Source: Paragemmobacter kunshanensis (GTDB taxonomy: Bacteria > Pseudomonadota > Alphaproteobacteria > Rhodobacterales > Rhodobacteraceae). Taken from it: 64,000 bases of DNA. The notes beneath the pieces are model-generated. The model was given only the letters and a program-made list of their open reading frames with translations, did no database searches and had not been told where the DNA came from. Location of the stretch: contig NZ_JAALFE010000004.1 in NCBI RefSeq assembly GCF_011059185.1, positions 186,001 through 250,000 of the forward strand, in the 5' to 3' direction. Position 1 is the stretch's first letter. Every line of letters starts with the position of its first letter. The position numbers and the translations under genes are program-made. Positions 1,384 to 53,955 of the stretch are shown piece by piece.

Positions 1384-2643
1384 TCATTTCAATGTCACGC
1401 GGACAGGCAGCGATTTCAGCCCGGCCACGAAGTTGGATCGCAGGAATTTCTGTTCTCCCGCAGGTTCGATCGACTTGATCCGCTTGGCGAGTTCCTGAAA
1501 CAGCACCCGCACCTCCAGCCGCGCCAGCCACATGCCCAGGCACAGATGCGGCCCGCCCTGCCCAAAGGCCAGGTGGCGGTTGGGCGTGCGCGCCAGATCC
1601 ACGCGGAAGGGTTGATCGAAGGCCGCCTCGTCGCGATTGGCCGAGGCATACCAGTAAAGCACCTTGTCGCCCGCCCTGATCTGCTTTCCATGCATCTCGA
1701 AATCGCGCGTCGCTGTCCGGCGGAAATAGGATGTGGGCGACGCCCAGCGGATGATCTCGTCTGCCATGGTGTCATCCACCGCCCCGCTCTGGATCTGCGC
1801 CAGAAGTTCGGGCTGATGCGCCAGCGCCTGTATGCCCGCCGCGATGGAATAGCGCGTGGTGTCATTGCCCGCCGCCACGATCAGGCAGAAGAAGTTGCGA
1901 AACTCGTTCTCCGGCAGGACAGATCCATCGGGACCGGGTTGCAGGATCAGGTGCAACACCCCCGACGTATCCCCCGCCGCGGTTTTCCGCTGCATCAGAT
2001 CGCGCGCATAGACGAACAGTTCCGCCCCCGCGGGCGAGTTGAAGGGCATCATCCGGAACTCATCCGTCGTCAGCTTGTCCAGCACGTGATCGGTGAAATC
2101 CGGGTCGGTATTGGCGATCAGCGCATCGCCCTTTTCCACCAGCCACGGCAGGTCTTCATCCGGCAGGCCGACGATCCGGCCCAGCATCCGCATCGGCAAT
2201 TCGCGGGCAATCTCCTTGGTTGCATCGAAGGTGCCCTTGGCAAGCGCAGAGTCGAGGATATCAACGCAAAGATCGCGGATCGCCTCTTCAAACCCCGCCA
2301 CCACAGGTTTCGAGAATGCCTTCGCAACCTTGACCCGCGTCATCATGTGTTCGGGCGGATCGGTCTCCTGGAATGTGCGGCGGGCGAGGTATTCCTCATA
2401 GCTCTGATCCTCCATCCTTATGCCGCGGGCCGAGGAAAGAAGGTCGGGCTTGCCGTTCAGCGCATGGATATCGGCATGCCGGGTGACAGACCAGAAGGGC
2501 AGGCCCTGATCCCATTCCGTCCAGTGCATCGGATCATCCCGGCGCAGGCGGGCAAAGGTGTTGTGCGGCGCACCGGTCAGAAAGGTGTCATGGCTGGTCA
2601 GATCGGCATGGCCATCATCGGTGGGTGTCCAGACCGTCATCAT
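1384..2643 (-). CDS. Cytochrome P450
   Basis: A soluble bacterial class I cytochrome P450 of 419 residues. The I-helix oxygen-activation motif AAGNDTTR lies at about 257-264, the K-helix ExxR at 296-299 (EIIR), and the heme-thiolate loop FGQGGPHLCLG at 360-370 with Cys368 as the iron ligand. There is no N-terminal membrane anchor. The start is ATG-ATG with AAGGAG just upstream, so the second ATG at 2640 is equally possible. It is the promoter-proximal gene of a minus-strand operon with the glutamine-synthetase-like gene and probable ferredoxin, and it diverges from the amidotransferase at 2712. The family and motifs are clear; the substrate is unknown, an amine or an alkylated acid being plausible from the neighbours. 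Confidence 0.95.
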   Translation of the reverse strand: MMTVWTPTDDGHADLTSHDTFLTGAPHNTFARLRRDDPMHWTEWDQGLPFWSVTRHADIHALNGKPDLLSSARGIRMEDQSYEEYLARRTFQETDPPEHMMTRVKVAKAFSKPVVAGFEEAIRDLCVDILDSALAKGTFDATKEIARELPMRMLGRIVGLPDEDLPWLVEKGDALIANTDPDFTDHVLDKLTTDEFRMMPFNSPAGAELFVYARDLMQRKTAAGDTSGVLHLILQPGPDGSVLPENEFRNFFCLIVAAGNDTTRYSIAAGIQALAHQPELLAQIQSGAVDDTMADEIIRWASPTSYFRRTATRDFEMHGKQIRAGDKVLYWYASANRDEAAFDQPFRVDLARTPNRHLAFGQGGPHLCLGMWLARLEVRVLFQELAKRIKSIEPAGEQKFLRSNFVAGLKSLPVRVTLK

Positions 2644-51519: not shown

Positions 51520-52344
51520 TCAGGGCCCTTCACCGGCCTTCAGGAACTTGGCTCCCCCCGCGCCCATGCCACCGCTCTGGACAGAGGCCCTCCGCGCCCC
51601 CGGCGCCGCTGCCCGCCAGGCGCGGTCCAGCTCGGCCATCAGATCATCCAGCAGACCTTCCACAGGAACGGCAATGGTGACGGGCCTGCCATTCACCTCG
51701 GCCCCGGCGGAAATGACCGACACCAACTCAGACCCATAGGCCGTGTCGCGAAACACCGGGGCTCCGGACGCGCCGAAATCCGTCACGCAATCCAGCACGA
51801 CCATACGGCCCTCGGTCCCCAGAACCGCGCAGGCATCCTGCATCGACGCCGCCTCTGACCGGTCCCGCGCATAGGATACGATCTCCACCCGATCCCCACC
51901 CCGCGGAAAGGATCCGGTCGCCGCCGGCGTGATCGAGGGCAGCAGGATCGGCTCACCCAGCTTGATCAGGCCAAGGTCGCTTCCGATCTGGTCCCGATGC
52001 GCCATGCTGCCCTCCTCAAGTCCGGGGCGATAGCCGGGATGCGGCAGGATCATCGCCCCCGCGCGATCCGCCTCGGCCCGGCCATCGCGCCATCCGGCCA
52101 GGAATGTCAGTTCCGAAGCGCGATACGGCTCTCCCGTCGCCTTGTCGAAAAGACAATGCGCCGCCGTCAGCACCACATCCGGCGCGATCAGCGTGCCGCT
52201 GCAAAACCCCCTCGATCCCAGGTCGATCCGCCCCACCGCGGCCCATCGCCCGGCGACCACCCCGGTCTCAAGCGGGCGAAGGTTTCCATCCCAGCCAAGC
52301 GCCGGTTGCGCCAGAAGGGCCAGCCAGACCAGAACGCCACGCAT
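51520..52344 (-). CDS. Secreted trypsin-like serine protease
   Basis: A 274-residue S1-family protease. A signal peptide covers about residues 1-17. The catalytic histidine lies in VVLTAAHCLFD near 57-67, the aspartate in GSDLGLIKL near 125-133, and the serine in DFGASGAPVF near 196-205. The usual GDSGGP reads GASGAP, as in several bacterial V8-like members. The C-terminus ends in a glycine-rich GGAKFLKAGEGP tail shared with the paralogue at 53164-53955. Export to the periplasm is expected; the substrate is unknown. Confidence 0.88.
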   Translation of the reverse strand: MRGVLVWLALLAQPALGWDGNLRPLETGVVAGRWAAVGRIDLGSRGFCSGTLIAPDVVLTAAHCLFDKATGEPYRASELTFLAGWRDGRAEADRAGAMILPHPGYRPGLEEGSMAHRDQIGSDLGLIKLGEPILLPSITPAATGSFPRGGDRVEIVSYARDRSEAASMQDACAVLGTEGRMVVLDCVTDFGASGAPVFRDTAYGSELVSVISAGAEVNGRPVTIAVPVEGLLDDLMAELDRAWRAAAPGARRASVQSGGMGAGGAKFLKAGEGP

Positions 52345-52479: not shown

Positions 52480-52507
52480 GAAGGGGCACCCCACCGGGCG
52501 CCCCTTC
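52480..52507 (-). terminator. Hairpin downstream of hsp20
   Basis: GAAGGGGC (52480-52487) pairs with GCCCCTTC (52500-52507), with further CCC/GGG pairing inside the loop. It lies 25 bases past the hsp20 stop on the minus strand, followed by a modest TTCGTTT. It shares its core with the hairpin at 51401-51428. Confidence 0.5.
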
Positions 52508-53006: not shown

Positions 53007-53094
53007 GGGGTCATCCTCCAGTGAGCGATGCTATGTCATGCCCTCCTCATCGGACGGGCGGCGATGCACCGGCCCTGTCACAGGCATCCGGCAC
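53007..53094 (-). ncRNA. ROSE-type RNA thermometer in the hsp20 leader
   Basis: The predicted 88-base leader can fold into successive hairpins. The last one (53012-53030) pairs CAUC(G)CU with AGGAUG around a six-base loop. The G opposite the Shine-Dalgarno is left unpaired, which is exactly the U(U/C)GCU-against-AGGA arrangement of ROSE elements. The GGAGG there is the ribosome binding site, nine bases before the ATG. An upstream hairpin uses CCGG/CCGG with CCUG/CAGG. Heating would melt the weak final stem and free translation. Confidence 0.65.
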
Positions 53095-53101
53095 AACCCG
53101 G

Positions 53102-53130
53102 ATTTGGGAATGAACCACGCCGCTTTCAAG
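53102..53130 (-). promoter_or_regulatory. Sigma-32 (RpoH)-type promoter of hsp20
   Basis: On the minus strand CTTGAAA (53130-53124) is a perfect heat-shock -35 box. After 14 bases comes TCCCAAAT (53109-53102), close to the CCCCATnT -10 box. The expected transcript start near 53094 lies about 88 bases before the hsp20 ATG. Confidence 0.6.
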
Positions 53131-53163: not shown

Positions 53164-53955
53164 TCAGGGCGCAACCTTCAGGAACTTTGCCCCGCCCCCG
53201 CCGCCCGAAAGGACGCGCGCCCCCGTCGCCGCCCGCGGCGCGCCCGCCGCCAGTTCCGCCTTCAGCACGGCCAGCGGCTCCGACAGCGGCACAGCCAGCG
53301 ACACCGCCTCGCCCTGCACCTGCGCCTTGGCCGAGATCACCGACACGATCCGCACCTCGCCATCCCGCATCGCAAAGACCGGCGCGCCGCTCGCCCCGAA
53401 TTCCACCGCGCAGGACAGCACCATCAGATTGCTCCGCTGCGCCATGATCTCGCAAACCTCCTGCAGCGACGGCGCCTCCGACCGGTCCATCGCATAGGAC
53501 ACGATCCCCACCTCCTCGCCCATCATCGGGGCGGGATCGGTGGCGAAGGGGGTCACCTGCGGCAGGCGGATCGGCTGGTCCAGCCGCAACAGCGCCACAT
53601 CCACCCCCACATTGCCCAATTCCTCGGCCACGTCGAACTGATAGCCCGGATGCACCAGCGCCTGCGCCACCGCGCGATAGGCCTCCGCCCGCCCGTTGCG
53701 CCACCCGGCCAGAAAGCGCAACTCGCCCTCGCCGATCCGCGCGCCCGTCACCTTGTCGAACAGGCAATGCGCCGCCGTCAGCACCAGATCCTCGGCGATC
53801 AGCGCGCCCGTGCAGAACCCCCGCTCGCCCAGTTCGATCCGGCCCACGGCCTGCCATCCCTTGCCATCGTCGCCCGTCTGCAGCGACCGGATCGTCGGCC
53901 CCTCGGCATGGGCCGGTGACAGCATCAGCAGGAACAGGATCGCGACAAGACGCAT
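53164..53955 (-). CDS. Secreted trypsin-like serine protease, paralogue
   Basis: A 263-residue S1-family protease with a signal peptide at about residues 1-17. The catalytic histidine is in LVLTAAHCLFD near 57-67, the aspartate in VGVDVALLRL near 116-125 and the serine in EFGASGAPVF near 188-197. It closely parallels the protein at 51520-52344 along its whole length, including SYAxDRSEAxSxQ-C and the glycine-rich GGAKFLK C-terminus. It lies on the same strand just upstream of the hsp20 promoter, implying duplication around or with hsp20. A role in envelope stress is plausible but unproven. Confidence 0.88.
   Translation of the reverse strand: MRLVAILFLLMLSPAHAEGPTIRSLQTGDDGKGWQAVGRIELGERGFCTGALIAEDLVLTAAHCLFDKVTGARIGEGELRFLAGWRNGRAEAYRAVAQALVHPGYQFDVAEELGNVGVDVALLRLDQPIRLPQVTPFATDPAPMMGEEVGIVSYAMDRSEAPSLQEVCEIMAQRSNLMVLSCAVEFGASGAPVFAMRDGEVRIVSVISAKAQVQGEAVSLAVPLSEPLAVLKAELAAGAPRAATGARVLSGGGGGAKFLKVAP

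Follow-up and report, generated by a model that had tools for sequence, protein, structure and literature searches.

A probable ROSE-type RNA thermometer behind a heat-shock promoter in the hsp20 leader of Paragemmobacter kunshanensis

Introduction

ROSE elements are RNA thermometers in the 5′ leaders of small heat-shock genes. They consist of two to four hairpins, in the last of which a U(U/C)GCU motif blocks the Shine-Dalgarno sequence (PMC3669281, PMC4166951), and members of the group have been shown to act as thermometers (PMC3669281). The rhizobial hspA type is described by the Rfam family RF00435 and the E. coli ibpA type by ROSE_2 (RF01832), whereas short ROSE-like thermometers with two hairpins precede ibpA in Pseudomonas (PMC3669281). 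More than 40 candidates in alpha- and gammaproteobacteria were predicted in 2005, as cited in PMC3669281 and PMC4166951. Within the Rhodobacteraceae, the available excerpt of PMC3230580 places typical ROSE-like motifs upstream of ibpA and hspD in Nautella sp. R11. The RpoHI promoters of Rhodobacter sphaeroides are characterized by a C at −37 and a T at −9, and the base at −9 is reported to be critical for RpoHI (PMC3441632).

Here we analyzed a window of 64 kb (the whole stretch of DNA under study) from the genome of P. kunshanensis (4.46 Mb, 99.98% complete), whose closest named relatives belong to Rhodobacteraceae genera such as Rhodobacter, Gemmobacter and Tabrizicola. We conclude with high confidence that the leader of its hsp20 gene is a ROSE-type RNA thermometer behind a heat-shock promoter. 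Because the Nautella R11 motifs and the candidates of 2005 precede it, the leader is a new ROSE member of a kind already known.

A conserved RpoH-type promoter upstream of hsp20

The elements of the locus are the following, with the bulged G of each hairpin in square brackets:

52480..52507, minus strand: terminator-like hairpin, about 26 nt past the hsp20 stop codon
52533..53006, minus strand: hsp20, small heat-shock protein of 157 amino acids (Pfam PF00011 HSP20, E 2.1e-18)
53007..53093, minus strand: predicted 5′ leader, ROSE element (68.2 bits, E 8e-12 with the covariance model R1, see below)
53012..53030, minus strand: hairpin P3, ROSE core, CAUC[G]CUC ACUG GAGGAUG (predicted fold; bulged G at 53026; 99% of cells paired)
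53014..53019, minus strand: Shine-Dalgarno sequence GGAGGA, spanning the end of the P3 loop and the 3′ side of the stem (8 nt from GGAGG to the ATG)
53040..53059, minus strand: hairpin P2, GCCC[G]UCC ... GGAGGGC (double changes in 6 of 8 pairs among 87 leaders)
53068..53092, minus strand: hairpin P1, GCCGG A U[G]CC ... GGG CCGGU (double changes in 8 of 9 pairs among 87 leaders)
53102..53108, minus strand: −10 element CCCAAAT, its last T at −9 (CCCAnnT kept in relatives)
53124..53130, minus strand: −35 element CTTGAAA of RpoH (sigma-32) type, assigned by sequence and kept in relatives, with the C before TTG as in the RpoHI logo (PMC3441632)

The promoter, CTTGAAA-N15-CCCAAAT at 53130-53102 on the minus strand, thus combines a −35 and a −10 element of RpoH type at the correct spacing. 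With its TTG placed at −36 to −34, it has the C at −37 and the T at −9 of the RpoHI logos (PMC3441632). A relaxed pattern, CTTGAAA-N12-15-CCCANNT, occurred once in the window, compared to 0.02 expected occurrences. In the leaders of relatives, all 12 scored promoter bases were matched in 63 of 96 cases and 11 or 12 of them in 86 of 96. An earlier note on this DNA had proposed the CTTGAAA box together with a good −10 partner, and both are present and conserved. It had placed the box 88 bases upstream of the ATG; we measured 117 nt, and approximately 87-88 nt is instead the distance from the ATG to the predicted transcript start. Judged from the promoter spacing, this start would lie at about 53093, yielding a leader of about 87 nt.

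One RpoH gene of the genome passes the curated cut-off, and another match is strong but falls short of it. Promoter sequence and conservation suggest RpoH-dependent transcription of hsp20 on heat shock. The terminator-like hairpin suggests a single-gene hsp20 transcript, on a hairpin count (one found, 0.5 expected by chance) that is weak taken alone.

Two mutually related genes for trypsin-like serine proteases lie on either side of hsp20 (51520-52344 and 53164-53955, minus strand) and share a similar C-terminal ending (GGAKFLK). One of them ends just 33 nt before the CTTGAAA box.

Three conserved hairpins with covariation

To compare the leader among relatives, we gathered loci by the hsp20 protein, 18 from the same genus (including the locus itself) and 80 from further Rhodobacteraceae, and aligned the 87 distinct leaders with MAFFT by sequence only. 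The promoter and three hairpins, P1, P2 and P3, were common to the Rhodobacteraceae leaders, all preceding a small heat-shock gene (PF00011) as in P. kunshanensis. A structure of 24 pairs was formed in 91.4% of the cells of this alignment, compared to 42-58% when the partners were slid, a contrast that is inflated since the structure was partly picked from the same alignment. Double changes were found in 16 of the 24 pairs, and none of 500 shuffles, which ignore relatedness, reached any of five measures. These double changes, spread over many genera, are the strongest point for a conserved structure of three helices, within the two to four hairpins known for ROSE.

The pairs of P3 are mostly invariant, with a top pair alternating between C-G, U-G and U-A. 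Its bulged G is invariant (87/87 leaders), and the UYGCU and AGGA segments are nearly so. In the predicted fold, the Shine-Dalgarno sequence is held in P3 by base pairing to the UCGCU strand, with G53026 bulged out, and within the whole leader this hairpin was the predicted structure at every temperature tried. The earlier note had described precisely such a hairpin at the leader end, with the ROSE U(U/C)GCU / AGGA pairing and bulged G hiding the ribosome binding site; this description of the last hairpin agrees with the conserved, predicted fold, but the two upstream hairpins of the three-hairpin element had been missed.

An ordinary Shine-Dalgarno sequence beside a fortuitous complementary pentamer could in principle give the same picture. 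Three copies of UYGCU-N3-8-AGGA exist on both strands of the 64 kb, two of them with no start codon following, and P3 is the single copy that precedes one. The motif TYGCT..AGGA is, however, kept beside the ATG in 97 of 98 related loci, which refutes such a coincidence, and the compensatory changes in three helices argue against it as well; we regard this explanation as practically negligible.

Four relatives (L042, L053, L096 and L104) have an extra hairpin between P2 and P3, at about 1450-1480. The leaders of three relatives had a promoter score of 8, and in the two of these that carry the extra hairpin, it may have pushed the promoter beyond the stretch that was read.

The 3′ arm of P2, GGAGGGC (53046-53040, minus strand), nearly duplicates GGAGGAU, the ribosome binding site within P3; P2, too, has a bulged G. 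This arm is possibly a decoy or a relic of a duplication. An alternative fold, in which the Shine-Dalgarno sequence pairs with the 5′ arm of P2, had a probability of ≤0.02 in the thermodynamic ensemble. Transcription attenuation by P2 was rejected because the sequence has no U-run after this hairpin.

Relationship to the Rfam ROSE families

The earlier note had suggested a covariance search with the Rfam ROSE families. In the window and in the leader itself this search yielded nothing above chance, with no match even at E 10. In three relatives, RF00435 matched the leaders over its full 94 positions, including the bulged G of both P1 and P3, with 30-33 bits. The gathering cut-off of 45 bits was reached neither by the leader in the window nor by those of the relatives. 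At an e-value of 0.001, RF00435 identified 11 loci in 385 alphaproteobacterial genomes, just three of them above the gathering cut-off, whereas ROSE_2 (RF01832) gave no match in these genomes at the same value. Because most RF00435 loci in the class (8 of 11) also fall below it, we take this cut-off as a threshold of the database and not as a property that defines ROSE.

For the reverse comparison we built a covariance model, R1, from Rhodobacteraceae leaders alone. Chance rates came from the window itself and from searching the whole genome with the models. The single significant match in the P. kunshanensis genome was the hsp20 leader (68.2 bits, E 8e-12); three weak matches elsewhere (E 0.7-5.6) had no hsp20 nearby and were taken as chance. 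In the 385 alphaproteobacterial genomes, R1 recovered all 11 RF00435 loci, with L113 as a weak case (E 0.05). Profile homology thus holds in both directions, from R1 to the Rfam ROSE loci and, weakly, from RF00435 to the Rhodobacteraceae leaders. Altogether, 70 of the 385 genomes were matched by R1, compared to 11 for RF00435. Outside the P. kunshanensis genome, hsp20 followed directly in all 29 inspected loci, a few of which coincide with RF00435 loci. The element was found in 136 of 149 Rhodobacteraceae genomes, a family figure that is not independent of the training of R1 on source genomes and near relatives, whereas the figure for the class is mostly independent.

Hence hsp20 is probably under ROSE heat control as a rule in Rhodobacteraceae, and such control is probably widespread among the Alphaproteobacteria. 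With 70 of 385 genomes matched by R1 and 11 by Rfam ROSE, current annotation misses most of these elements, and RF00435 appears too narrow for the Alphaproteobacteria. The covariance evidence is a ready basis for an improved ROSE family model.

Like RF00435, the leader has three hairpins in the same order, with a bulged G in P1 and P3 and a UYGCU-(loop)-AGGA core, before a small heat-shock gene. Unlike in RF00435, where the P3 stem covers the AUG, P3 stops at GAUG and the start codon lies outside; the leader sequence is also too divergent for the gathering score. With the Pseudomonas ibpA thermometers (PMC3669281) it shares the unpaired start codon, the GC-rich stable upstream hairpin, the ROSE core in the last hairpin and sigma-32 transcription, which is predicted here, but it has three hairpins rather than two. 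ROSE_2 has the same core motif and function class. The Nautella R11 ibpA and hspD motifs belong to the same bacterial family and kind of gene, a likeness that concerns motif presence alone, as given in the excerpt of PMC3230580. The Rhodobacteraceae leaders might be seen as a distinct ROSE sub-type, with the AUG outside the last hairpin, a bulged G in all three hairpins and the second GGAGGG in P2 as a possible decoy or alternative fold; we consider this rather unlikely. These leaders offer a second, AUG-free ROSE form as a test bed for which hairpins and bulges set the switching temperature.

Probable double control of hsp20 by transcription and translation

When the bulged G was removed, the computed stability of P3 at 37 °C rose from −6.7 to −10.5 kcal/mol, which suits a helix whose stability is kept low. 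With ViennaRNA, P3 and hence the Shine-Dalgarno sequence were predicted to remain mostly paired at 42 °C. We gave this prediction no weight because leaders matched by Rfam ROSE likewise failed to melt. Nearest-neighbour energies that predict no melting of P3 would also suit a leader whose hairpins serve as a binding site for a protein or small RNA, or set the basal rate of translation or the stability of the mRNA, with the heat response due to RpoH transcription alone. We judge this to be very unlikely, as the architecture, the bulged G, the anti-Shine-Dalgarno motif and the downstream gene all match ROSE, and so do the reciprocal model matches with Rfam ROSE.

The ROSE thermometer thus remains our preferred reading, and all sequence features of ROSE are found in the leader. 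Double control, as the earlier note had proposed, is most likely: covariation, reciprocal models, the association with hsp20 and the conserved promoter support both layers at the level of sequence, the RpoH layer through the promoter and its conservation, the opening of P3 through ROSE membership. Heat would raise RpoH activity, leading to transcription of hsp20 from CTTGAAA/CCCAAAT, and the leader of roughly 87 nt would fold into the three hairpins. At normal temperature, GAGGA would be paired with the UCGCU anti-Shine-Dalgarno strand in P3, keeping ribosomes off, in a helix that the bulged G interrupts and presumably weakens. By analogy with other ROSE members, we infer that P3 opens upon heating and translation starts, while the GC-rich P1 and P2 would remain folded and insulate P3, roles taken from the literature.

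A short ROSE-like leader at the second hsp20

The other hsp20 of the genome (G000:C63, locus L002) has an RpoH-like −10 element, CCCCATAT, and a shorter leader than the first hsp20:

L002 (G000:C63), about 1898-1970, minus strand: second hsp20 leader, two-hairpin short ROSE-like form, comprising AUGUC[G]CUU..AAGGGCAU in addition to a P1-like hairpin

This leader is similar to the short Pseudomonas form with two hairpins. Judging from these sequences, both small heat-shock genes of the genome probably carry ROSE thermometers. Among 12 aligned members of the genus, the AUGUC[G]CUU..AAGGGCAU segment of the second leader was invariant except for one site that alternates between U-G and U-A.
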